Assembly: GCA_018819205.1 (NCBI GenBank)
Contig: JAHJQE010000070.1
Coordinates: forward strand, 1-41,824
Direction of reading: 5' to 3'
Length of the DNA stretch: 41,824 nt
Source: Gammaproteobacteria bacterium
GTDB taxonomy: Bacteria; Pseudomonadota; Gammaproteobacteria; Burkholderiales; Gallionellaceae
Numbering within the stretch: position 1 is the stretch's first letter; each line of letters starts with the position of its first letter. Under the pieces are notes generated by a model. It was given only the letters and a program-made list of their open reading frames with translations, did no database searches and was not told the DNA's origin. The position numbers and the translations under genes are program-made. Positions 6,082-41,818 of the stretch are shown here, in pieces.

Positions 6082-7176
6082 ATGAATCAAGCCGTCCAAG
6101 CCGCACCCGCAGCAAAGCGCAAGCCGAAGGAGACAGGTGTACCTGACAATACCCAGTACCTGCACCCGACGCTGCTGAAGAACTATGGCAACTGGCGTTA
6201 TCACGACCGTCCGCGTCCGGGTGTGCTGCATCACGTGGCACACAGCGGCGACGAGGTATGGTCCGTGCGCGCCGGTACCCAACGTCAGATGGACGTTTAT
6301 ACCATCCGCAAACTGTGTGACATCGCTGACAACTTCGCCGAAGGTCGTGTGCGTTTCACCATCCGTTCCAACATCGAGTTCATCGTGACTGACGAGAAGA
6401 AAGTCGCGCCGCTGATCGCAGAACTGGAGAAGAATGGCTTCCCGGTCGGTGGTACCGGCAACTCGGTCACCATGATCGCCCACACCCAGGGCTGGTTGCA
6501 CTGCGACATCCCTGGTACCGACGCTTCCGGCGTGGTGAAGGCGCTGATGGACGAGCTATACGACGAGTTCCGTCGCGAAGAGATGCCGAACCGCGTGCAC
6601 CTGTCCACCTCCTGCTGCGAGATCAACTGCGGCGGTCAGGCTGACCTGGCCATCATCGTGCAGCACACCAAGCCGCCGGTGATCAACCATGATCTGGTCG
6701 CCAACGTGTGCGAACGCCCGACAGTTGTGGCGCGTTGCCCGGTCGCTGCGATCCGTCCCGCCATGGTCAACGGCAAGCCTTCGCTGGAGATCGATGAAGC
6801 TAAATGTATGTGCTGCGGTGCCTGCTATCCTCCGTGCCCGCCGATGCAGATCAATGATCCGGAATTTTCCAAACTGGCCATCTGGGTCGGTGGCAAGAAC
6901 TCCAACGCACGTGGCAAGCCGACCTTCATGAAGATGGTTGCTGCCGGTCTGCCCAACAATCCTCCGCGCTGGCCTGAAGTGGGTGCTGTGGTGAAGAACA
7001 TCCTCACCGTGTACAAGGAAGATGCGCGCCCATGGGAGCGTCTGGCCGACTGGATCGATCGTATCGGCTGGCCGCGTTTCTTCGAGAAGACCGGTCTGCC
7101 GTTCACCAAGTACCTGATCGACGACTGGCGCGGCTCGCGTTACAACCTGAACGCTTCGGCACACATCCGTTTCTAA
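6082..7176 (+). CDS. dsrB: Reverse-type dissimilatory sulfite reductase subunit beta
   Basis: A 364-residue beta subunit pairing with DsrA in an alpha2-beta2 enzyme that also binds DsrC. The siroheme-cluster cysteines are in STSCCEINCGGQAD near residue 175, and a ferredoxin domain has CMCCGACYPPCPP near residue 250. The C-terminal NPPRWPEVG and DDWRGSRYNLNASAHIRF segments are typical of DsrB. An AGGAGA ribosome site precedes the ATG. The gene follows dsrA by 11 bp and precedes dsrE by 13 bp. No unusual feature was seen. Confidence 0.97.
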   Translation: MNQAVQAAPAAKRKPKETGVPDNTQYLHPTLLKNYGNWRYHDRPRPGVLHHVAHSGDEVWSVRAGTQRQMDVYTIRKLCDIADNFAEGRVRFTIRSNIEFIVTDEKKVAPLIAELEKNGFPVGGTGNSVTMIAHTQGWLHCDIPGTDASGVVKALMDELYDEFRREEMPNRVHLSTSCCEINCGGQADLAIIVQHTKPPVINHDLVANVCERPTVVARCPVAAIRPAMVNGKPSLEIDEAKCMCCGACYPPCPPMQINDPEFSKLAIWVGGKNSNARGKPTFMKMVAAGLPNNPPRWPEVGAVVKNILTVYKEDARPWERLADWIDRIGWPRFFEKTGLPFTKYLIDDWRGSRYNLNASAHIRF

Positions 7177-7189
7177 GCGAGGTGACTGA

Positions 7190-7549
7190 ATGAAGTTTGG
7201 AATCGTAGTCAACGAGGGGCCGTACCAGCATCAGGCGAGCGATTCAGCTTACCTGTTCGCCAAAGCGGCCATCGAGGCGGGACATGAAGTGTGGCGTGTG
7301 TTCTTCTATCACGACGGCGTGAACAATGCTTCACGCCTGACTGAGCCGCCGCAGGACGACCGCAACATCGTCAACCGCTGGGCCAAGCTGGCGGAAGAGC
7401 ACAAGGTCGATCTGGTGGTGTGCGTGGCGGCAGCATTGCGTCGCGGCATCAAGGAAGAGAACCTGGCGCAGGGCTTCCGCATCTCCGGTCTGGGTCAACT
7501 GGTCGAGTCTGGTATCAAGTGCGACCGTCTGGTCACCTTCGGCGATTGA
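7190..7549 (+). CDS. dsrE: DsrE sulfurtransferase subunit
   Basis: A 119-residue member of the DsrE/DsrF/DsrH family. In oxidisers DsrE2F2H2 is a cytoplasmic heterohexamer that hands sulfane sulfur to DsrC. The sulfur-binding cysteine lies in DLVVCVAAALRRG at position 78, the same position as the active Cys of Allochromatium vinosum DsrE. Presence of DsrE with this Cys, rather than the reductive gene set, is one of the markers for the oxidative pathway. RBS GAGGTG lies just upstream. The gene is spaced normally between dsrB and dsrF. Confidence 0.95.
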   Translation: MKFGIVVNEGPYQHQASDSAYLFAKAAIEAGHEVWRVFFYHDGVNNASRLTEPPQDDRNIVNRWAKLAEEHKVDLVVCVAAALRRGIKEENLAQGFRISGLGQLVESGIKCDRLVTFGD

Positions 7550-7559
7550 GGAGAGCGAA

Positions 7560-7925
7560 ATGAGTGACAACAAGAAATTCATGTTCGTGAACCGCAAGGC
7601 GCCTTACGGCACGATCTACGCGCTGGAGTCGCTGGAAGTGGTACTGATCACCGCGGCCTTCGACCAGGACGTGTCGCTGGCCTTCCTCGACGATGGTGTC
7701 TATCAGTTGAAGAAGGGCATGCAGACCAAGGGTATCGAGACCAAGAACTTCTCGCCTACCTACCGTGCGCTGGAAGACTACGACGTCGAGAAGCTATACG
7801 TTGAAAAGGAAGCGATGGAAGCACGCGGTCTGAACGAAGACGACTTCATCGTCGGCGTCACCGTGCTGAGCCGTGCCGAGATGGGCAAACTGATGGACGA
7901 GCAAGACGTCGTCCTGAGTTTCTAA
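7560..7925 (+). CDS. dsrF: DsrF subunit of the DsrEFH sulfurtransferase
   Basis: A 121-residue DsrF-type protein (KKFMFVNRKAPYGTIYALESLEVVLITAAFDQDVSLAFLDDG). It has the expected DsrE-like fold but no catalytic cysteine, consistent with a structural role in the DsrEFH hexamer. GGAGAG precedes the ATG. It lies 10 bp after dsrE and 10 bp before dsrH, in the usual order. Confidence 0.94.
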   Translation: MSDNKKFMFVNRKAPYGTIYALESLEVVLITAAFDQDVSLAFLDDGVYQLKKGMQTKGIETKNFSPTYRALEDYDVEKLYVEKEAMEARGLNEDDFIVGVTVLSRAEMGKLMDEQDVVLSF

Positions 7926-10980: not shown

Positions 10981-12951
10981 ATGTCGGCAACAATTGATAC
11001 CCCACAAAATCTGACTTTCCGTCGTTACAAGGACGGCGACAGCAAGGTGAAACGCTGGAACGAAAAGATCTTCCAGTCCAGCTATTCCTACAAGTGCCCG
11101 ACCTATATCCAGTCCACGCCGCCTTGCCAGGGCAGCTGCCCGGCCGGTGAGGACATCCGTGGTTATTTGGCGATCGTGCGCGGCACCGAGAAGGTGCCAA
11201 ACGGCGCCGACGGCAAGCCGATCATGCCGTGGCAGGAATACGCCTGGCGTCGTCTGACCGAAGCCAACCCGTTCCCGTCGGTGATGGGTCGTGTCTGCCC
11301 CGCACCGTGCGAATCCGGTTGCAACCGCAACGAAGTGGAAGACCACGTCGGCATCAACTCGGTCGAGCATTTCCTTGGCGAATATGCGATCGCCAACAAT
11401 CTGAAATTCAACAAGCCGAACGTCGCCGCCACCGGCAAGAAGGTCGCTGTGTTGGGCGGTGGCCCGGCCGGCCTGTCTGTTGCCTATCAGCTGACGCTTA
11501 AGGGTCATGAAGTCACCATCTTCGACGACCACGAATTCCTCGGCGGCATGATGCGTTACGGCATCCCCGGTTTCCGTACCCCGCGCGACGTGCTGGACGC
11601 AGAGATCCAGCGCATCATCGACCTGGGTGTGAAGACCCGCATGAAATGCCACGTTGGCAAGGACATCACGCTGGAACAGATCCGCAAGGAGTTCGATGCG
11701 GTGTTCCTCGGCATGGGCGCACAAGCCGGCCGTGCACTGCCTATCGCCGATTCCGATGCACCGAACGTAGTGACCGCGACCGCCTTCCTGAAGGCGTTCA
11801 ACGACGGCCGTCTGCAGCATGTGGGCAAGCGCGTGGTGGTGGTCGGCGGTGGCGACACCTCCATCGACGTGGCGACTGTTGCGCGTCGTCTGGGTCACAT
11901 CAGCCATGCCAACCAGACCGACACCGAGCTGGCCATCACCGGCCAGTTGGCACACGACGTCGCCGAGATCTCCGCCAAGGAAGGCGCGATGGTCACGCTG
12001 ACCTCCGTGTTCCCCATCGACAAGATGCAGGCCAACAAGCACGAGATCGAGCAGGCACTGGCTGAAGGCATCCACATCAAAGGTGGTTTGGTGCCTATCG
12101 GCATCGTGCGTGATGCGAACGGTCGTGCCACTGCGCTGCGCGTGATGCAGTGCGAGGCCAAGTTCGTCGGCGGCAAGCTGGAGATCAAGAACGTCGAAGG
12201 CAGCGAACAGGACATCGAAGCTGACCTGATCGTTTCCGCGATCGGCCAGGCTGTGGACTTCACCGGTCTGGAAGAATTCAACAACGGCAAGGGTGCAGTC
12301 TCTACTGACCGCAACTATGTGGTGGCAGGCAAGCCCGGCGTGTTCGCCGGCGGCGACGTGATCCGTCCGCACCTGTTGACCACTGCTATCGGCCACGGCT
12401 CCATCGCTGCCGACGGCATCCACAACTTCCTGCTGGGTATCGATCTGGAGAAGCGTCCCAAGATTGATGCGCACCAGTTCGATCTGATGCGCAAGATGGC
12501 GGAGAAGGGCCTGGAGATCAAAGATGCAACCGAGCCACTACGCGGCACCTGCGACACCAATGTCGCCGTGCACAACTTCGACAACCGTTCGGATCGCTAC
12601 ATCATTCCGCACGACAAGCTGTTCCTCGGTCACTTCGGTTTCACACCGCGCAAGCAGCGTCACATCATCACGCTGGATGAGCAGACCGCACTGGGCAACT
12701 TCGAAGAGCGTCTGAATCCTCTGCCTGAGGCGGATGCCGTGGCCGAAGCCAAGCGCTGCATGAGTTGCGGTATGTGCTTCGAGTGCGACAACTGTGTGGT
12801 GTATTGCCCGCAGACCGCGGTATACCGCGTCAAGAAGAGCGAATCGACGCTGGGCCGCTACGTCGCGACCGACTACGACAAGTGCATCGGTTGCCACATC
12901 TGTGCCGATGTGTGTCCGACCGGTTACATCCAGATGGGTCTGGGTGAGTGA
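10981..12951 (+). CDS. dsrL: DsrL iron-sulfur flavoprotein, NAD(P)H:acceptor oxidoreductase
   Basis: A 656-residue protein related to the small subunit of glutamate synthase. The N-terminus carries cluster cysteines (CPTYIQSTPPCQGSCPAG and CPAPCESGCNR). The FAD fold is marked by VLGGGPAGLSVAYQL near residue 155 and the NAD(P) fold by VVVGGGDTSIDVA near residue 285. A C-terminal two-cluster ferredoxin domain follows (CMSCGMCFECDNCVVYCP and CIGCHICADVCPTG). In oxidisers DsrL takes electrons from DsrAB and is required for sulfur-globule oxidation. It is a strong marker for oxidative direction. Its stop overlaps the dsrJ start (ATGA). Confidence 0.95.
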   Translation: MSATIDTPQNLTFRRYKDGDSKVKRWNEKIFQSSYSYKCPTYIQSTPPCQGSCPAGEDIRGYLAIVRGTEKVPNGADGKPIMPWQEYAWRRLTEANPFPSVMGRVCPAPCESGCNRNEVEDHVGINSVEHFLGEYAIANNLKFNKPNVAATGKKVAVLGGGPAGLSVAYQLTLKGHEVTIFDDHEFLGGMMRYGIPGFRTPRDVLDAEIQRIIDLGVKTRMKCHVGKDITLEQIRKEFDAVFLGMGAQAGRALPIADSDAPNVVTATAFLKAFNDGRLQHVGKRVVVVGGGDTSIDVATVARRLGHISHANQTDTELAITGQLAHDVAEISAKEGAMVTLTSVFPIDKMQANKHEIEQALAEGIHIKGGLVPIGIVRDANGRATALRVMQCEAKFVGGKLEIKNVEGSEQDIEADLIVSAIGQAVDFTGLEEFNNGKGAVSTDRNYVVAGKPGVFAGGDVIRPHLLTTAIGHGSIAADGIHNFLLGIDLEKRPKIDAHQFDLMRKMAEKGLEIKDATEPLRGTCDTNVAVHNFDNRSDRYIIPHDKLFLGHFGFTPRKQRHIITLDEQTALGNFEERLNPLPEADAVAEAKRCMSCGMCFECDNCVVYCPQTAVYRVKKSESTLGRYVATDYDKCIGCHICADVCPTGYIQMGLGE

Positions 12952-34878: not shown

Positions 34879-35718
34879 TCAGCGCTTGCCGTAACGCAGT
34901 ACCAGCCATATCCCGCCCAGTATCAACACCGACGACACCAGCAGGTCGCGCGTGACGGCTTCGCCCAAGAGCAGGATGCCCGCGATGGCAGCCAGCACCG
35001 GCGCGGAGAGTTGCACTGTCGAGGCCGTCATCGCGCGCATGTGTTGTAGTACGCGATACCAAAGCACATAACCCAAAGCCGACGTCACCGCGCCGGATAG
35101 CACGGCATACAACACGCCCTGTGCATCCAGTTGCAGCTGGGGCAGGGCGAGCAGCGAGAGTGCGATGGTGAGCGGCGCGGCACGCAGGAAGTTACCGGCG
35201 GTGGCGGCAGCGGGGTTGGCTTGGCCACGACCGAACAGCGAATACACGCCCCAGGCGACACCGCTCGCCAGCATCAGCAGCGAATCCAGCACCGATGGCG
35301 CTTCCACGCCGGGCGACACCAGGATCACCAGACCGATCACCGCCGCCACGAAGCCCGCACTTTGCATGGCCGTCATGCGTTCACCCGCGATGAATCCGGC
35401 GATGAGCATGGTCGCCTGCACCGCGCCGAACAGCATCAGCGCGCCCGCACCGGTGTCTATGCTGCGGTAAGCGAAGGAGAGGGTGACGGCATAGATGAAT
35501 AAAGCCGTCGCGCTGCGCCAGTTGCCGTGAGCCAATGGAGCCTGTCTTTGCAAACTCATCAGCAGCCACAACATCGCCGCCCCGGACAACAGGCGCACGC
35601 TGGTGAAAGTGGCCGCGTCGATGGTGGTCTCTTTCAGTGCCATGCGACAGAACAATGAATTGCCCGCGAAGGCGATCATGGTCAGCGTGGTGTAGGCGGC
35701 GAGGCGAAGCTTGGTCAT
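34879..35718 (-). CDS. EamA-family drug/metabolite transporter
   Basis: A 279-residue inner-membrane protein with about ten hydrophobic segments in two EamA repeats (TLTMIAFAGNSLFCRMAL... and LMLASGVAWGVYSLFGRGQ...). It exports metabolites or amino-acid-like compounds; substrate unknown. The start MTKLRLAAY at 35718 is preferred over an upstream ATG that encodes a basic, non-conserved leader. It is convergent with patB. The C-terminus VLILGGIWLVLRYGKR ends on a positive cytoplasmic tail. Confidence 0.9.
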   Translation of the reverse strand: MTKLRLAAYTTLTMIAFAGNSLFCRMALKETTIDAATFTSVRLLSGAAMLWLLMSLQRQAPLAHGNWRSATALFIYAVTLSFAYRSIDTGAGALMLFGAVQATMLIAGFIAGERMTAMQSAGFVAAVIGLVILVSPGVEAPSVLDSLLMLASGVAWGVYSLFGRGQANPAAATAGNFLRAAPLTIALSLLALPQLQLDAQGVLYAVLSGAVTSALGYVLWYRVLQHMRAMTASTVQLSAPVLAAIAGILLLGEAVTRDLLVSSVLILGGIWLVLRYGKR

Positions 35719-35786: not shown

Positions 35787-36776
35787 TCAGCGCGCCAGCT
35801 GCAGCGGTTCTGAGGCGGACTGGCTAAGGTAATGCACGTTGAACAACTCATTCTCATCGTGCCAGGTCGATCGCAGGTGCCAGCCAGCCGTGCGCGCCAG
35901 TTGCCGGAATTCCCGCGCGGTGTACTTGTAGGAGTTCTCGGTGTGGATGCTCTCGCCCGCGTTGAACTCGAACGATTCTCCGTTCAGTCGTATCACTTGT
36001 CTGCAGCGGCTGACCAGATGCATCTCGATGCGCCCGTGCGTTTCGTTGTAATACGCATGGTGCGAGAATTGATCCGCATCGAGTTGCGCGCCGAGTTCGC
36101 ATTGCATGCGCGTCAGCAGGTTCAGGTTGAACGCGGCGGTGTGACCTGCTGCATCGTTGTAGGCGGCATTCAGCACATCCGGCGATTTCTTGGCATCCAC
36201 ACCGATCAGCAAACCACCGCCGGGGCCGACCAGTGCGGCGACGCGCTGCAATAACTGCACGGCTTCTTCCGGTGTGCAGTTGCCTATGGTGGAGCCGGGA
36301 AAGAACACCACCTGCCGCCGACTCGCATACCGCTTGAAAGCATGGCCGGGAAGCTGGTGGTAGTCGGCGCACAAAGGCAGCATCTTCAGTTTCGGGAACA
36401 TCGTTTGCAGGCGTTGTGTGCTTTGTTGCAAGTGCGAGTCGCAGATGTCGATAGGGATGTAAGCGGCATCGTCGTCCAGGTGCTGCAGGATCAACGGCGT
36501 CTTGATCGCGCTGCCGCTGCCCAGCTCAATCAGCGTGCAGGAAATTCCAATCATCTCTGCCATCTCAGCGCCGTGACGTTCAAGGATGGCGGTCTCGGTG
36601 CGCGTGGGGTAATACTCCGGCGTGGTGCAGATCAGGTCGAACAGGTGCGAGCCATGCGCGTCGTAGAAATATTTCGGCGGGATGGTCTTGGGACGACTGC
36701 GCAGACCTTCGCGCACGCTGCAGAGAAAATCGTCTTCTTCCTGTTCTGGTGATGGGGTGGGCGATTCGTTTCTCAT
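35787..36776 (-). CDS. egtD: L-histidine N-alpha-methyltransferase
   Basis: A 329-residue SAM-dependent enzyme that makes hercynine, first step of ergothioneine synthesis. PPKYFYDAHGSHLFDLIC, TPEYYPTRTE, LIELGSGSAIKT and FFPGSTIGN are EgtD signatures. The start at 36776 overlaps the egtB stop (ATGA), while the longer in-frame extension reads through egtB DNA and is not conserved. It is the last gene of DUF427-egtB-egtD. Ergothioneine is a thiol antioxidant. Confidence 0.96.
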   Translation of the reverse strand: MRNESPTPSPEQEEDDFLCSVREGLRSRPKTIPPKYFYDAHGSHLFDLICTTPEYYPTRTETAILERHGAEMAEMIGISCTLIELGSGSAIKTPLILQHLDDDAAYIPIDICDSHLQQSTQRLQTMFPKLKMLPLCADYHQLPGHAFKRYASRRQVVFFPGSTIGNCTPEEAVQLLQRVAALVGPGGGLLIGVDAKKSPDVLNAAYNDAAGHTAAFNLNLLTRMQCELGAQLDADQFSHHAYYNETHGRIEMHLVSRCRQVIRLNGESFEFNAGESIHTENSYKYTAREFRQLARTAGWHLRSTWHDENELFNVHYLSQSASEPLQLAR

Positions 36777-38026
36777 GTGATGTCCTCCGCCAGACGCAGA
36801 CCGGAGAACATCCAGCGGTCCGCCGCCCGGAAAAAGTTGCGATAGCTGGTACGCATATGATCCTGCGCGGTGACGCAACAACCGCCGCGCAACACCATCT
36901 GATCGCACATGAATTTGCCGTTGTATTCGCCCAGCGTGCCGGGCAGGGGTTTGAAACCGGGGTAGGGCAGATAGGCGCTCTGCGTCCATTCCCACAGGTC
37001 GCCGAACATCTGCGTCAAGCCTGTCTGCTGCGCGGGACGCGGCACATACAGCCCGCTGTCGAAAAAGTTGCCAGAGATGGGCTGCGTGCTGGCGGCATGC
37101 TCCCACTCCGTCTCAGTCGGCAGCCGCTTGCCCGCCCAGCGCGCATAGGCGTCCGCCTCGTAATAACTCAGGTGCGACACCGGCTCGTCCAGGCGCAGTT
37201 CATGCGCGCCGGTCAGGTCGAAATGCATCCAGTCACGGTCTTGCCTGAACCAGTACAAGGGCGCTTGCCAGTGCTGTTCTTTGAGCGTGCGCCATGCATC
37301 GGACAGCCACAGCTCGACTCGCTCGTAGCCGCCATCGTCGATGAAGGACAGATATTCCGCATTGCTGACCAGCCGCGTAGCGAGACGGAAATCCTGCACG
37401 TAAGTCTTATGGCGCTGTCGCTCGTTGTCGTAGGCGAATGCATCGCCGTCATGGCCGATCTCGACAATGCCTGCAGCAAAATCCTGCCAGCCCATCTTCG
37501 CAAGAGGTGAAGCAGAGCGTAGTTTGATCTGGTGATAGACCGGATGCAGCGGATTGATGGAGAAGTTGTAGCATGTATCCATCAGCAGCAGTTCCTGATG
37601 CTGTATTTCGTGTTCCAGTCCCAGTTGCAGTCGCTGCATGATATCGGCCGCATGCTGCTCGGGAACATCGCTCAGCAGCTCCAGCAGCGCGCCATCGACA
37701 TGATGACGGTAGTCGTATATTTCCTGCACAGTGGGGCGCGACAGCATGCCGCGCTGCGGGCGTGGGAAGAAGGTGCCCGCCGTCTCGTAATAGGAATTGA
37801 ACAGGTGCGCGTATTCCTCGCGCAGCATGCGGTAGCGTTTGGCATACGGCACGAGGATGAACATCTCGAAGAACCAGCTGACATGCGCCAGATGCCACTT
37901 GGGCGGACTCACGCTCTCCATCGCCTGGATGCAGTAGTCCTCGACTTGCAGCGGTGCACACAACGCCTCGGAACGTGCGCGCACCGTGCGGTAACGCTCG
38001 ATCAGTTCATCCATCGTCTCGGCCAT
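36773..38026 (-). CDS. egtB: Ergothioneine sulfoxide synthase
   Basis: A 417-residue non-haem iron enzyme joining hercynine to a thiol. The N-terminal DinB-like domain holds HLAHVSWFFEMF and the metal motif GLEHEIQHQELL near residue 135. The C-terminal FGE-sulfatase (formylglycine-enzyme-like) domain has YLSFIDDGGY, PVSHLSYYEADAYARWAGKRLPTE, the LWEWTQSAYLPYPGF stretch and VLRGGCCVT. Whether it uses cysteine or glutamylcysteine cannot be told from sequence alone. No egtC or egtE lies in the window. The start overlaps the DUF427 gene by 20 bp. Confidence 0.95.
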   Translation of the reverse strand: MAETMDELIERYRTVRARSEALCAPLQVEDYCIQAMESVSPPKWHLAHVSWFFEMFILVPYAKRYRMLREEYAHLFNSYYETAGTFFPRPQRGMLSRPTVQEIYDYRHHVDGALLELLSDVPEQHAADIMQRLQLGLEHEIQHQELLLMDTCYNFSINPLHPVYHQIKLRSASPLAKMGWQDFAAGIVEIGHDGDAFAYDNERQRHKTYVQDFRLATRLVSNAEYLSFIDDGGYERVELWLSDAWRTLKEQHWQAPLYWFRQDRDWMHFDLTGAHELRLDEPVSHLSYYEADAYARWAGKRLPTETEWEHAASTQPISGNFFDSGLYVPRPAQQTGLTQMFGDLWEWTQSAYLPYPGFKPLPGTLGEYNGKFMCDQMVLRGGCCVTAQDHMRTSYRNFFRAADRWMFSGLRLAEDIT

Positions 38027-38312
38027 CCTCTACCTTGACGCCGTGCCAGAACGCGACGTGATCCTTGATGCGGGCCGCCAGCGCGGACGGCTCGGGGTAA
38101 TACCATGCTGCATCTTCGTTCACCTTGCCGTCAACCACCACGTCGTAATAACTGGCCTCGCCTTTCCAGAAGCAATGTGTGTGCGTCGCGCTTGGTTTGA
38201 GATACTCACGCTTCACCGCGCTGAGCGGAAAATAGACGTTTCCTTCCACACGGTGGATATCCTTGCTTGGTGCTTCGGCAATGACCTGATCGTTCCATAT
38301 GGCTCTTGGCAT
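38007..38312 (-). CDS. DUF427 domain protein leading the ergothioneine operon
   Basis: A 101-residue single-domain DUF427 protein: RAIWNDQVIAEA, VEGNVYFP, THCFWKGEASYYDV and AWYYPEPSALAARIKDHVAFW are conserved. Function unknown; the fold is a compact beta barrel. It overlaps egtB and is the first gene after an ECF-type promoter (38369-38398), so it shares regulation with egtBD. GGAGAG lies ahead of the ATG. Confidence 0.9.
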   Translation of the reverse strand: MPRAIWNDQVIAEAPSKDIHRVEGNVYFPLSAVKREYLKPSATHTHCFWKGEASYYDVVVDGKVNEDAAWYYPEPSALAARIKDHVAFWHGVKVEDGRDDG

Positions 38313-38368: not shown

Positions 38369-38398
38369 TTGGTCGGTCAATGCAGCTATAACCTTACA
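38369..38398 (-). promoter_or_regulatory. ECF-type promoter of the DUF427-egtB-egtD operon
   Basis: On the minus strand TGTAAGG (from 38398) and CGACCAA (ending 38369) are separated by 16 bp. The same two boxes occur at three other promoters in this region with a 15-bp gap. It lies 57 bp before the DUF427 ATG. Recognition by the ECF sigma factor encoded at 38628-39191 is inferred. Confidence 0.65.
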
Positions 38399-38448
38399 AC
38401 CATATTAAGGAGGTCGCGATACAGTGTGCGTGGTCTCCGCTGATGGGG

Positions 38449-38625
38449 TCACAGTTTGCGCGGCAGTTCGCGTGCCGCCTTGCGGAGGAAGGCGAGCTGC
38501 TTCTCGAAATTACGGCAGCCGCGGCACATCAGCAGATGCATGCGCATCGCGATGCGTTCGCGCAGCGTGATGGGGCGGTCGTATGATTGCGACAGCAGTT
38601 CAGTGTTGTGTTTGCAGTCCAGCAT
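38449..38625 (-). CDS. Small zinc-binding anti-sigma factor
   Basis: A 58-residue soluble protein with the ZAS-type motif H-x3-C-x2-C (MHLLMCRGC) plus an N-terminal Cys-His (DCKH). It starts 2 bp after the stop of the ECF sigma gene. No membrane segment, so it probably senses a cytoplasmic signal such as thiol oxidation at the zinc site and then frees the sigma factor. The start at 38625 is chosen for its GAGGT ribosome site; an upstream ATG is inside the sigma gene. Confidence 0.85.
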   Translation of the reverse strand: MLDCKHNTELLSQSYDRPITLRERIAMRMHLLMCRGCRNFEKQLAFLRKAARELPRKL

Positions 38626-38627
38626 GA

Positions 38628-39191
38628 TTACCTCGCATTTCCAAACCAGTTCATATCCAGGCACTCGCGCAATGCCAGCCGCGCACGGTGCAGGATCACC
38701 CAGCAGTTAGTCGACGAGATCCCCAGTTCCTGACAAATCTCGTCCGTCGTCATATCCATGAATTCGCGCATCATGAAGGCGCGGGCGGTGTTGAGCGGCA
38801 TGCGCTGGTTGCATTGCTCGAAGATCTTCCAGAAATGCGCATTCTCCAGCGATTGCTCCGGCGCGTTCCAGCTTTGCGGCGGGTCGGCCCAGTGCCCGTT
38901 CTCCTTGAACAGCGCATCCACCAGTTCGTTCTCGTCCTCGCCCTCGGCCACATTCAGTTGCGGTTCGCGCGCACGCTTGCGCAGCAGGTCGATGATCTTG
39001 TGCTTGAGGATGCCCACCAGCCAGGTGCGCGGCGACGACTGTGCGGCGAATTTGGCCCGGCTCTCGATGGCGGCCACCAGCGTCTCCTGCACCACGTCCT
39101 CGGCCAGGTTCGGGTCGCGCAGTTGCAGCATGGCGTAGCGTATGAGGTGGCTGCGATGTGCTTGCAGTGCTTCTGGATCAATGTCGCTCAT
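38628..39191 (-). CDS. ECF-family RNA polymerase sigma factor
   Basis: A 187-residue sigma-70 family protein. Region 2 spans residues 12-70 (LRDPNLAEDVVQETLVAA, WLVGILKHKIIDLLRKR) and binds the -10 element; region 4 is DMTTDEICQELGISSTNCWVILHRARLALREC and binds -35. An acidic linker lies between. A zinc anti-sigma follows it by 2 bp. Four promoters in the flanking 2.5 kb share GTAAGG and CGACCAA boxes and are the likely targets. Its own upstream region has no such box, so autoregulation is not evident. Confidence 0.95.
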   Translation of the reverse strand: MSDIDPEALQAHRSHLIRYAMLQLRDPNLAEDVVQETLVAAIESRAKFAAQSSPRTWLVGILKHKIIDLLRKRAREPQLNVAEGEDENELVDALFKENGHWADPPQSWNAPEQSLENAHFWKIFEQCNQRMPLNTARAFMMREFMDMTTDEICQELGISSTNCWVILHRARLALRECLDMNWFGNAR

Positions 39192-39250
39192 TCAATCTCC
39201 GGTTGGCTGGCGAGATGCACTGCATGGTAGCACTCGCGGAAACGCAAAAC

Positions 39251-39271
39251 ACCCGCCAGGCGAGGGCGGGT
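39251..39271 (-). terminator. Intrinsic terminator after the Cys-repeat gene
   Basis: ACCCGCC (39251-39257) pairs with GGCGGGT (39265-39271); on the minus strand the stem is followed by GTTTT. It lies 20 bp beyond the repeat cytochrome stop and separates it from the sigma gene. Confidence 0.8.
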
Positions 39272-39292
39272 GCATGGGGAAGCTGAAAGGGA

Positions 39293-39934
39293 TTAGTGGC
39301 GTGTCGCGGCACAAGGATTGGCCGCCGCGCAAGGGTTCATCGCGGCACATGGATTCTGCGCTGCGCACGGGTGCTTGGCTGCACAAGGATTGACCGCACG
39401 GAAACCTTTTTGCAGCGAACCGGTGTACGCGGTCAACGCAGCCAATCGTTTGCTGTTCCAGGGCAGTGGTTTGGCCGCCATCGGCACCACCATGCAGAAC
39501 TGCACCATCTCATCCAGATGCACCGACTTTACACCGGCGCGTTCGTCGGTCATCTGCACATGATGTGGATAGGGTTCTGCGAACGAGTTCTGGAACGCGC
39601 CGTTGTCACTATGGCAAGTGTTGCAGCTCATGCCGTTGCTGCTCAGGCGCGTGTCGCTGAACAAGCGCTTCCCATAAGACAGCAACTCTTTATTGTTGCC
39701 CCGGTAAGGGCGATAGTTGACCGGGCGCATCACGCCCTTGATATCCATCTTCATCATCGCGGCGGCGCAAGGGTTGGCAGCCGCGCAAGGGTTCTTCGCC
39801 GCACAGGGATTCATGCGCGTGCTGCGCGGGGCGCAGGGGTTGGCGCGACAGGGCGCGGCCATCGCTATGCCGCCGACCGACAGGCTCAGCACGCCGGAGG
39901 CGATCAGGGTATGCATCAGGCGGGTGCGTTTCAT
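39293..39934 (-). CDS. Cytochrome-like protein with NPCAA pentapeptide repeats
   Basis: A 213-residue exported protein with a signal peptide (MHTLIASGVLSLSVGGIAMAA). The mature protein starts with about five PCA-type repeats (RANPCAP, MNPCAAKNPCAAANPCAAA), has a central domain with one CNTCH haem motif, and ends with five repeats (NPCAAKHPCAAQNPCAAMNP, then CAAANPCAATRH). The central domain resembles di-haem peroxidase-like cytochromes (LLSYGKRLFSDTRLSSNGMSCNTCH). The Cys repeats could bind a soft metal such as copper or act as a redox thiol array. The start at 39934 follows AGGAGAA. An ECF-type promoter lies just upstream. No named family. Confidence 0.88.
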   Translation of the reverse strand: MKRTRLMHTLIASGVLSLSVGGIAMAAPCRANPCAPRSTRMNPCAAKNPCAAANPCAAAMMKMDIKGVMRPVNYRPYRGNNKELLSYGKRLFSDTRLSSNGMSCNTCHSDNGAFQNSFAEPYPHHVQMTDERAGVKSVHLDEMVQFCMVVPMAAKPLPWNSKRLAALTAYTGSLQKGFRAVNPCAAKHPCAAQNPCAAMNPCAAANPCAATRH

Positions 39935-39979
39935 TTTGTTCTCCTCGAATGATTTTGGATTTTTCAGCAGTGACATGTC

Positions 39980-40008
39980 TTGGTCGTGCGAGTCGTGCAA
40001 ACCTTACG
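39980..40008 (-). promoter_or_regulatory. ECF-type promoter of the NPCAA cytochrome gene
   Basis: On the minus strand CGTAAGG and CGACCAA are 15 bp apart, 46 bp before the gene's ATG. The upstream box overlaps the last codons of the AhpC-like gene, so the repeat gene can be expressed separately from it. Confidence 0.65.
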
Positions 40009-40573
40009 CAGTCGCCATCTGGTTGGTGGCAGGGCGTGAAGCCATGCCACGCACCGCGAACAGTTCCACGCGTTCCATCGGGATGTGGTCGCCAGCATCC
40101 TTTCCGTAGTAGGTCTCGACGATGGTGCCCTGTTCGTCGATGAGGAAGTCTGCCGGCATCAGGTTGCCGCTTGCCATGCCGCGCATGCCGACCATTCCCA
40201 TGCCGCGCAGCATGGTGGGCATGCGCAGCAGCATCGCCTTGAGTTTGCCCAACATCGAATGGTTCACCTCGAACAGTTGATGCGCATCGCCTTGCGGGTC
40301 TGCCACCATGCGGAAGGGGCGCGGGCGACGGGCGATGAACTGGCGCACATCCTCCGCTTCGGATTTGAAGATCACCACGATATCCAGCCCGAGGCTGTTC
40401 AGGCCGGGATAGTTATTGGTCAGGTCATACACTCTGAAGTTGCAGAAAGGGCAGGTCGCTTCGCGGAACAGCGAGAGCAGCACTTTTCTGCCCTGACCGA
40501 TCTGGATCGGTAGGCCGTGGATGTCCTGCAGCTGGCGCAGCGGGGATTGGGTCGGGGCAAGTAGCTGCATCAT
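40004..40573 (-). CDS. AhpC/TSA-family peroxiredoxin-like protein
   Basis: A 189-residue thioredoxin-fold protein. FREATCPFCNFRVYDL has a CPFC active-site pair at the position of peroxiredoxin/TSA redox Cys; VVIFKSEAEDVRQFIARR and PADFLIDEQGTIVETYYG are typical of the family. A Met-rich stretch (MLLRMPTMLRGMGMVGMRGM) near residue 120 is unusual and may contact a metal. No signal peptide. Two ATGs are adjacent; AGGAGAA precedes them. Expressed from a divergent ECF-type promoter. Confidence 0.88.
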   Translation of the reverse strand: MMQLLAPTQSPLRQLQDIHGLPIQIGQGRKVLLSLFREATCPFCNFRVYDLTNNYPGLNSLGLDIVVIFKSEAEDVRQFIARRPRPFRMVADPQGDAHQLFEVNHSMLGKLKAMLLRMPTMLRGMGMVGMRGMASGNLMPADFLIDEQGTIVETYYGKDAGDHIPMERVELFAVRGMASRPATNQMATA

Positions 40574-40608
40574 GGTTCTCCTGATCGGTCATGTGGTGGA
40601 TGTGTGAG

Positions 40609-40637
40609 TTGGTCGAACGCAGTGCGGATTCCTTACA
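40609..40637 (-). promoter_or_regulatory. ECF-type promoter of the AhpC-like gene (divergent half)
   Basis: TGTAAGGAA and CGTTCGACCAA, 9 bp apart (15 bp between GTAAGG and CGACCAA), read on the minus strand towards the AhpC-like gene, 36 bp before its ATG. It is paired head to head with the plus-strand promoter at 40649-40677. Confidence 0.7.
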
Positions 40638-40648
40638 AACAATATTCA

Positions 40649-40677
40649 TGTAAGGAAATGCGTGTTCGTTCGACCAA
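40649..40677 (+). promoter_or_regulatory. ECF-type promoter of the thioredoxin-ccdA pair (divergent half)
   Basis: TGTAAGGAA-N9-CGTTCGACCAA reads on the plus strand, identical in both boxes and spacing to the minus-strand partner. The two -35-like boxes form an inverted repeat (40629-40657) around an 11-bp centre, so one divergent region drives both units. It ends 38 bp before the thioredoxin ATG. Confidence 0.7.
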
Positions 40678-40715: not shown

Positions 40716-41090
40716 ATGTTCAAGAAACTGTTCTTATCGCTGCTGCTGTTGCTTCCCCTGTTCGCCCACGCAGCCGGTGAACCCTACACGCAGAACAAAC
40801 TGGACGCGTTGAACAAGTCCGGCCAAGCAGCGCTGGTGTTCATCCACGCCCCATGGTGTCCCACCTGCCGCGCACAGGATGCGGTGCTGGACAAACTGTT
40901 GCCGACGGACGAATTCAAATCCTTCACCACTCTGAAGGTCGATTTCGATGGCCAGCATGATGTGGTCAAAGCATTCGGCGTGCGTTATCAGAGCACGCTG
41001 ATCGTGTTCAAGGGCGGCCATGAAGTGGCGCGCGTGACCGGTGAGACGGATCGCGACAAGATCGCCGCATTGTTGCGCAAGGCGCTGTAG
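40716..41090 (+). CDS. Periplasmic thioredoxin-like protein
   Basis: A 124-residue protein with a Sec signal (MFKKLFLSLLLLLPLFAHAA) and a thioredoxin fold whose active site is FIHAPWCPTCRAQDAV (CPTC). VRYQSTLIVFKGG holds the cis-Pro region, although Ser/Thr replaces the usual Pro neighbourhood (YQST). Probably a periplasmic thiol reductase fed by the CcdA-like protein downstream, 2 bp away. GGAGATT precedes the ATG at 40716. Reduction of the Cys-repeat protein is a possible job, by context only. Confidence 0.9.
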   Translation: MFKKLFLSLLLLLPLFAHAAGEPYTQNKLDALNKSGQAALVFIHAPWCPTCRAQDAVLDKLLPTDEFKSFTTLKVDFDGQHDVVKAFGVRYQSTLIVFKGGHEVARVTGETDRDKIAALLRKAL

Positions 41091-41092
41091 AG

Positions 41093-41818
41093 ATGGAACT
41101 GACCGCAGCCAGTTACGGCTTGTCCTTCCTCGCCGGCGTGCTGTCAACACTGTCGCCGTGCGTGCTGCCGCTGGTGCCGATCCTGATGGGTTCCGCGGCG
41201 GGTAAGCATTTTCTCGGCCCGTTCGCGCTGGTGGGCGGCTTGATGATCTCGTTCACCGCCATTGGAGTGGGTCTGGGTTCGCTGGGCGGCAGCATTGGTT
41301 TGGAACAGGACACTTTGCGTGTGGTCGGCGGCGTGCTGTTGTTGCTGTTCGGCGCGTTGCTGGTGTCCAGCCGGTTGCAGGATCGATTCAGCGCGGCGGT
41401 CAGCCGTCTCGGTGTGGGGCAGGGCATGCTGGCGCATTTCAATCTGGACGGTCTGCACGGCCAGTTCCTGCTCGGTCTGTTGCTGGGCGTGGTGTGGAGT
41501 CCGTGTGTCGGGCCCACCCTGGGGGTGGCGATCACGCTGGCGAGTCAGGGAGAAGCCTTGGTGCAAGTCGCCTCGGTGATGGCGGTGTTCAGCCTGGGCA
41601 CTGGCCTGCCGCTGCTCGCGCTCGGTATGTTGTCCCGCCAGGCGATGGGCAAATGGCGCGGGCGTATGATGAACGCCGGTCAGAAGGCCAAGAAATTATT
41701 CGGAGTGGCTTTGTTGCTGATCGGCGTATTGGTGTTATCGGGCGCGGATAAAGGATTTGAGAAGTGGGCAGTCAACGCCATGCCCGAGTGGATGGTTAAC
41801 CTGACGACGCGCTATTAA
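41093..41818 (+). CDS. CcdA/DsbD-type membrane thiol-electron transporter
   Basis: A 241-residue protein with about six membrane segments matching the DsbD transmembrane domain. The two half-site cysteines occur in TLSPCVLPLVPILMG near residue 22 and VWSPCVGPTLG near residue 134. It passes reducing equivalents from cytoplasmic thioredoxin to periplasmic partners, here most likely the thioredoxin encoded immediately upstream. The C-terminal VNAMPEWMVNLTTRY is short and periplasmic or cytoplasmic. The stop is 6 bp from the end of the window, so it is complete. Confidence 0.92.
   Translation: MELTAASYGLSFLAGVLSTLSPCVLPLVPILMGSAAGKHFLGPFALVGGLMISFTAIGVGLGSLGGSIGLEQDTLRVVGGVLLLLFGALLVSSRLQDRFSAAVSRLGVGQGMLAHFNLDGLHGQFLLGLLLGVVWSPCVGPTLGVAITLASQGEALVQVASVMAVFSLGTGLPLLALGMLSRQAMGKWRGRMMNAGQKAKKLFGVALLLIGVLVLSGADKGFEKWAVNAMPEWMVNLTTRY

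Follow-up and report, generated by a model that had tools for sequence, protein, structure and literature searches.

A probable self-contained extracytoplasmic function sigma regulon in a Gallionellaceae genome, with a putative anti-sigma promoter in the helix-turn-helix codons of the sigma gene

The 41,824-nucleotide contig JAHJQE010000070.1 of a Gallionellaceae genome (hereafter, the window) encodes an extracytoplasmic function (ECF) sigma factor followed directly by a small zinc anti-sigma (ZAS) protein, and we suggest, with a probability of roughly 0.8, that the two form the core of one self-contained regulon with five promoter-like sites, the fifth of which (P5) would provide feedback. 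A preliminary description of this DNA had proposed a local ECF regulon defined by four sites with GTAAGG and CGACCAA boxes 15-16 bp apart. The regulon is upheld by the confinement of the motif to the locus, its recurrence in front of orthologs, its association with the ECF gene and its resemblance to the neisserial sigmaE promoter; the number of sites has to be corrected to five. The additional site lies inside the sigma gene and is the most interesting part of the finding; the original observation was right and better than stated. The five sites and the two regulatory genes are as follows.

38369-38397, minus strand: P1, GTAAGG-N16-CGACCAA, before DUF427-egtB-egtD (pattern scan)
39980-40007, minus strand: P2, GTAAGG-N15-CGACCAA, before the NPCAA cytochrome gene, then sigma and anti-sigma (pattern scan)
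40609-40636, minus strand: P3, GTAAGG-N15-CGACCAA, before the AhpC-like gene, divergent from P4 (pattern scan)
40650-40677, plus strand: P4, GTAAGG-N15-CGACCAA, before thioredoxin-ccdA (pattern scan)
38707-38734, minus strand: P5, GTCAGG-N15-CGACTAA, intragenic, sigma residues 152-162 (ICQELGISSTN) (pattern scan allowing GTCAGG)
38628..39191, minus strand: ECF sigma factor gene, 187 amino acids, TIGR02943 (259.2 bits versus a cut-off of 162.2)
38449..38625, minus strand: zinc anti-sigma gene, 58 amino acids, C4/H30/C34/C37 (NF052368, 73.2 bits versus a cut-off of 50)

The sigma factor is the sole TIGR02943 match above cut-off in its genome, and the anti-sigma gene starts 2 nt past the sigma stop codon. 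Within the window GTAAGG-N14..17-CGACCAA matches exactly four times, before the genes named in the preliminary description, and matched in none of 100 dinucleotide shuffles (mean 0.00, largest 0). A scan of the whole genome (103 contigs totalling 2,147,380 bases, completeness 100, the window being contig 30) for GTAAGG-N15/16-CGACCAA, which that description had proposed as a check, returned the same four sites and no others, as did the looser GTAAG-N15..18-CGACYAA and a version accepting CGAC or CGTC; the corresponding patterns read backwards gave 2, 3 and 2 matches, respectively. With GTMAGG-N15/16-CGWCYAA there are five matches in 2.15 Mb, all within 2.3 kb at the locus, and one match to the reversed control. 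The divergent copies P3 and P4 are, as had been described, identical in both boxes and in spacing, having TGTAAGGAA and CGTTCGACCAA in common with N15 between them; their -35 boxes are 13 bases apart, and 11 of these 13 bases are A or T.

The motif is tied to the sigma gene across genomes. In 120 genomes from this family, sampled evenly out of a larger group, the ECF gene was present in 29 (E 1e-30 or better) and GTAAGG-N15/16-CGACYAA in 32; 22 of the 29 sigma-positive genomes contained the motif versus 10 of the 91 sigma-negative ones (Fisher p 7.6e-11), and the reversed pattern showed no such preference (11/29 versus 34/91, p 1.0). When the two genomes with matches solely inside the sigma gene are excluded, the association persists (20/29 versus 10/91, p 4e-9). 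Likewise, the NPCAA cytochrome occurs in 15 of the 120 genomes, and all 15 are sigma-positive.

Recurrence in close relatives points in the same direction. The 11 loci with an ECF protein at least 77% identical to that of the window (L005-L014 and L022; locus numbers are our handles) were searched with GTAAG-N-CGAC[CT]AA, a looser pattern than the original. The NPCAA cytochrome is present at 10 of them and is preceded on the same strand by the motif at all 10, and the motif stands before thioredoxin at 7 of the 9 loci that have this gene and before DUF427-egtBD at all 4 loci with those genes in the fetched range. A counterpart of P1 in the same position is found in L008, L010, L014, L022, L105 and L106. 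Because the motif recurs before the NPCAA cytochrome and thioredoxin in close relatives, the predicted divergent promoter pair is ancestral. In the window the AhpC-like stop codon and the -35 box of P2 (40002-40007) overlap, and this leads us to suggest that the AhpC-like gene, together with the extra promoter P2, is a later insertion into the older promoter arrangement in the window's lineage.

In total, there is strong support for a local ECF regulon as the prediction for this locus. Alternatively, the shared boxes could be operators of another regulator. Promoter and operator are indistinguishable from sequence alone, but the presence of two boxes at a fixed 15-16 bp spacing, a start codon with a ribosome-binding-like sequence 35-56 nt downstream of each of the four intergenic sites, the likeness to the neisserial sigmaE consensus and the association with an ECF gene make this alternative very improbable.

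P5 lies in the helix-turn-helix codons of the sigma gene, 81 nt ahead of the anti-sigma start, and is spelled by the codons TGT CAG GAA ... TCG ACT AAC (CQE...STN). We suggest that these codons probably double as a promoter read by the sigma factor that they encode, that they drive the anti-sigma gene as a built-in negative feedback, and that throughout the order this function has kept synonymous codons constant, and perhaps residues as well. The pattern GT[AC]AGG-N15-CG[AT]C[CT]AA was compared with a null in which synonymous codons were shuffled within each gene and the protein was held fixed. In the discovery set, which was reduced from 26 to 25 genes by removal of near-identical ones, 19 genes have the site and 1.16 are expected. 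In a test set of 104 further sigma genes, from which L187 (the own genome) and L188 (G028) had been removed, 45 genes have it and 4.04 are expected; without L189, which is identical to the discovery gene L020, the counts are 44 of 103 and 3.88. The test genes are part of those from an order-level search in which the sigma factor was found in 164 of 399 genomes: 28 were obtained together with their loci, 60 were taken in list order with some of the same genus skipped, and 16 came from chosen handles. No test gene was picked by its site, and rows whose protein disallows P5 were retained. P5 is also present in 25 of 65 representatives whose proteins are below 70% identical both to one another and to the discovery set (2.57 expected, tail 2e-25) and in at least one gene of 24 of 35 families. 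Elsewhere in the 57,651 bases of the test genes, antisense, reversed or at a spacing of 14 or 16, the pattern was not found. That loose-pattern matches inside ECF genes are a coding coincidence was considered and is rejected by the codon tests.

The individual codons tell where the constraint lies. In 54 representatives whose cysteine is followed by K or Q (C-K or C-Q; taken out of the 104 genes, L189 included), the cysteine codon is TGT in 49, the following lysine or glutamine codon ends in AG in all 54, and the codon before the threonine or serine of the -10 box ends in CG in 49, whether it encodes A, P, S or T. When 117 columns are ranked by excess codon identity, xCG comes first, xAG second, TGT fourth and GAA eighth, and the scored spacer codons come at 51, 102 and 108, a further spacer column having no score. 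Thus, most, though not all, letters of the P5 boxes stand out, and the spacer codons are unconstrained. In contrast, another conserved cysteine of the protein, residue 127, is encoded by TGC in 22 of the 25 discovery genes. Synonymous codon choice therefore preserves P5. The arrangement downstream is also shared: 102 of the 104 test genes have, close to the sigma stop, the start of an open reading frame with a ZAS motif, and in 44 test genes with P5 the anti-sigma start follows the site at a median of 83.5 nt (range 42-214).

Several observations weigh against our interpretation. Within P5 itself, the centre codon of the -10 box (AC[CT]) reaches no more than rank 43 of the 117 columns and the final -10 codon rank 90. 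In the discovery set, a TTG codon for leucine at residue 174, used by 22 of the 25 genes and third in codon conservation there, lies outside the boxes. P5 was not found in B-type paralogs, in Aggregatibacter homologs or in any of the 9 genes of family f44, all of which must manage without it, as their protein disallows the site. A comparison of the P5 -10 variant (CGAC or CGTC) with the external promoters of the same genome was uninformative, every usable locus having CGAC in both. As for the external sites, the motif is not enriched as such: the reversed control occurs in more of the 120 genomes (45) than the motif does (32), so that raw motif frequency proves nothing and it is placement and association that are special. 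Of the 66 places at which the motif occurs, 5 are within a sigma gene, 40 others lie no more than 15 kb from one, and the remaining 21 are elsewhere; 7 of the 29 sigma-positive genomes have no strict motif. Among the close relatives, L010 and L011 have no strict motif before thioredoxin. In the wider order, the strict motif was found in the fetched flanks of only 9 of 104 loci (reversed control 1), and P5 is therefore not tied to external promoters there.

These observations leave room for a model in which the sigma factor does read the four intergenic sites as promoters but conservation of the P5 codons has a different cause, such as the speed of translation, the structure of the RNA or a site bound by some other factor. 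The unremarkable -10 centre codon and those homologs whose proteins disallow the site fit this model. It is not easily reconciled with the constrained letters being those of both promoter boxes at promoter spacing around a free spacer, with endings in CG and AG that hold whichever amino acid is encoded, with the opposite choice at cysteine 127, or with the lack of the site at neighboring spacings and in antisense. We consider this alternative unlikely and favor P5 as, most likely, an autoregulated promoter that would add anti-sigma factor while the sigma factor is active.

The genes that would be controlled are the following.

40004..40573, minus strand: AhpC/TSA-like redox protein, 189 amino acids, CPFC (PF00578, PF13911; SelL-related match below cut-off)
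39293..39934, minus strand: monoheme cytochrome c, 213 amino acids, signal peptide, NPCAA repeats at both ends (PF21342, PF03150; alignment)
38007..38312, minus strand: DUF427 protein, 101 amino acids (PF04248)
36773..38026, minus strand: EgtB, ergothioneine synthesis, 417 amino acids (TIGR03440, 557.2 bits, cut-off 360)
35787..36776, minus strand: EgtD, histidine N-alpha-methyltransferase, 329 amino acids (TIGR03438, 390.8 bits, cut-off 290.9)
34879..35718, minus strand: EamA/DMT-type transporter gene, same strand after egtD (open reading frame; family named by sequence resemblance)
40716..41090, plus strand: thioredoxin-like protein, 124 amino acids, signal peptide-like N terminus (PF00085)
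41093..41818, plus strand: CcdA/DsbD-type membrane protein, 241 amino acids (PF02683)

The order of transcription on the minus strand is AhpC-like gene, NPCAA cytochrome, ECF sigma, anti-sigma, DUF427-egtB-egtD and the transporter gene, which probably belongs to the egt operon; thioredoxin-ccdA is on the plus strand and divergent from these genes. In L022 a homolog of the EamA/DMT-like transporter gene follows egtD (12215-12550), whereas in L006 one follows the anti-sigma gene (6740-7576). The nearest named relatives of the host are Sideroxydans, Gallionella and further metagenome-assembled genomes of Gallionellales, and the host is an iron-oxidizer-like bacterium.

For binding, transcription starts, inducer and feedback we infer the following scheme: (i) in unstressed cells, the cytoplasmic zinc anti-sigma factor would hold the sigma factor, as judged from its family, (ii) oxidation of the zinc-cysteine site, or its capture by a thiophilic metal, would release the sigma factor, (iii) the free sigma factor would read the GTAAGG-N15/16-CGACCAA promoters and in that way induce a periplasmic reductant supply (thioredoxin and CcdA), the CPFC redox protein, ergothioneine synthesis and the cytochrome with its NPCAA cysteine repeats, (iv) P2 would also induce sigma and anti-sigma themselves, and (v) the sigma factor would read P5 in its own helix-turn-helix codons, giving rise to an extra anti-sigma transcript that closes a negative-feedback loop. 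If this is true, a stress switch has its own off-ramp written into the codons for the domain with which it reads DNA, in a layout durable across many families, and the locus would be a clean, testable case of a single stretch of DNA selected for two roles, protein code and promoter. Moreover, anti-sigma feedback would be findable in genomes by codon choice alone, and ergothioneine synthesis and an undescribed cysteine-repeat cytochrome would join an MseR-type regulon.

There is a precedent for the feedback. In Corynebacterium glutamicum, a SigH-controlled promoter inside sigH drives the anti-sigma gene rshA alone, according to the available part of the report (PMC3489674); as for rshA, boxes of the sigma factor's own type lie inside the sigma gene of the window upstream of the anti-sigma gene. 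The C. glutamicum system differs in being actinobacterial and in having another promoter sequence (PMC3489674). It was the one case of an intragenic anti-sigma promoter found in a literature search judged partly from listings; to the extent of these sources, the principle is not new, and the placement in helix-turn-helix codons and its conservation are.

The sigma/anti-sigma pair itself resembles known systems. The 58-residue anti-sigma protein has the motif C4-X25-H30-X3-C34-X2-C37, fitting the ZAS pattern (MseR/HrsE/RsrA type) C-X23-26-H-X3-C-X2-C beside a sigma gene, and its cysteines and histidine are invariant across 12 aligned sequences. The accessible portion of a study of Neisseria meningitidis describes a similarly small ZAS anti-sigma factor, MseR (NMB2145), for which Cys4, His30 and Cys37 are named, at the same positions as in the window, and a very small, autoregulated regulon of its sigmaE (NMB2144) with the consensus GTMAGBWTT, 12-13 nt, CGTCTAAH, in which the distance from GTAAGG to CG equals that in the window (PMC2893595). 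All five window sites read GTMAGG, and P2 alone fits all nine letters of the neisserial -35 box. The two systems differ in the -10 box, which departs from CGTCTAAH and is CGACCAA or CGACTAA in the window, and in their targets, which are egtBD, the NPCAA cytochrome, the AhpC-like gene and Trx-CcdA in the window and a DoxX-like operon and msrA/msrB in Neisseria. Methionine sulfoxide reductase genes were not found as targets in the own genome, in which all motif matches lie at the locus before other genes. In Haemophilus influenzae, RpoE2/HrsE likewise combines an ECF sigma factor with a small ZAS anti-sigma factor, neighboring redox genes and a DMT transporter among the targets; as far as the available text goes, it differs in controlling msrAB and responding to hypochlorite (PMC7907618). 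We suggest that the window system is a new variant of the MseR/HrsE-type systems with an unusual target set, identical to them neither in promoter nor in targets. Of the four Aggregatibacter homologs, which are 40-42% identical to the window sigma factor, three are accompanied by a CGTCTAA-type motif: in L024 (5412-5440), L025 (5398-5426) and L027 (5400-5428), GTAAGA-CGTCTAA stands before the gene for a peptide that is rich in methionine and looks secreted, and the RpoE2-like sigma gene lies downstream.

The targets in further relatives bear on the signal, for which the preliminary description had suggested a thiol- or metal-stress response. The motif is located before DUF2282 bufferin genes divergent from or adjoining the ECF gene in L015, L017 and L152, and before msrB, a DsbD-like gene and msrA in L150. 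In L157 it precedes a molybdopterin oxidoreductase and ferric-reductase-like pair (Pfam matches) with thioredoxin, which we take to be msrPQ. Because the motif thus precedes genes for bufferins, i.e. for copper buffering, and for methionine sulfoxide repair in relatives, a thiol- or metal-stress response is plausible as the predicted function. The motif also precedes radical SAM genes, presumably ArsS-like, in L146, L149 and L155, of which L146 and L149 also have an AhpC-like gene; B-type paralogous sigma genes (~43% identical) accompany these radical SAM operons with the same motif.

More specifically, the task of the regulon may be the buffering of copper or other soft metals, with the NPCAA cytochrome replacing bufferins and the redox genes keeping its cysteines reduced. 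We regard this as a possibility to be held tentatively, at somewhat below even odds. It is in line with the DUF2282 genes behind the motif and with the own genome, in which neither MNIO (PF05114) nor DUF2282 (PF10048) was found in a search that left Buf2-type precursors outside. It also agrees with the distribution in the 29 sigma-positive genomes, 15 of which have the NPCAA cytochrome, 14 DUF2282 and 4 both (lower tail 0.02), and with a gene for a cysteine-rich peptide of 40-42 amino acids that separates the motif from the NPCAA cytochrome in five loci or from the DUF2282 gene in L158. Yet four genomes have both proteins, metal binding by the cytochrome is a prediction, DUF2282 is only weakly associated with the sigma factor (14/29 versus 25/91, p 0.04), and the methionine sulfoxide repair genes of L150 and L157 point to oxidants. 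A parallel exists in Cupriavidus metallidurans RpoQ/RsqA, in which, in the available part of the source, the bufferin-like gigPABT operon is divergent from the ECF/anti-sigma pair, as in L015, L017 and L152, and gig responds to copper and gold; the differences are that RsqA is described as membrane-bound and that the window's genome has no bufferin genes by the above search (PMC10304878). For sigmaE of N. meningitidis, peroxide, diamide and singlet oxygen each elicited no response in the part of the study available (PMC2893595).

The NPCAA cytochrome has no second NPCAA match in its own genome. Its predicted structure was unusable (mean predicted local distance difference test score, pLDDT, 34.9; predicted template modeling score, pTM, 0.32), a search of solved structures with the cytochrome alignment recovered just the heme-binding stretch of MauG/peroxidase-type proteins (best E 0.0044), and a literature search on the repeat gave papers unrelated by title. 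The small cysteine-rich peptide (MSMMCKMN.SC....GMC.HEKMM plus a hydrophobic tail) is encoded between the motif and the cytochrome in L006 (5129-5257), L007 (5095-5223), L012 (5092-5220), L022 (5044-5169) and L145 (3777-3905) and between the motif and the DUF2282 gene in L158 (2296-2418). Two of these peptides were tested and gave no Pfam match, and in the window the stretch from P2 or from P3 to the following gene is too short to accommodate one. Finally, genes for small secreted proteins with NPCAA repeats also lie behind the motif in L005 (1468-1835), L014 (1415-1773), L143 (1702 onwards) and L162 (2872-3243), and several of them adjoin a DUF6969 gene.

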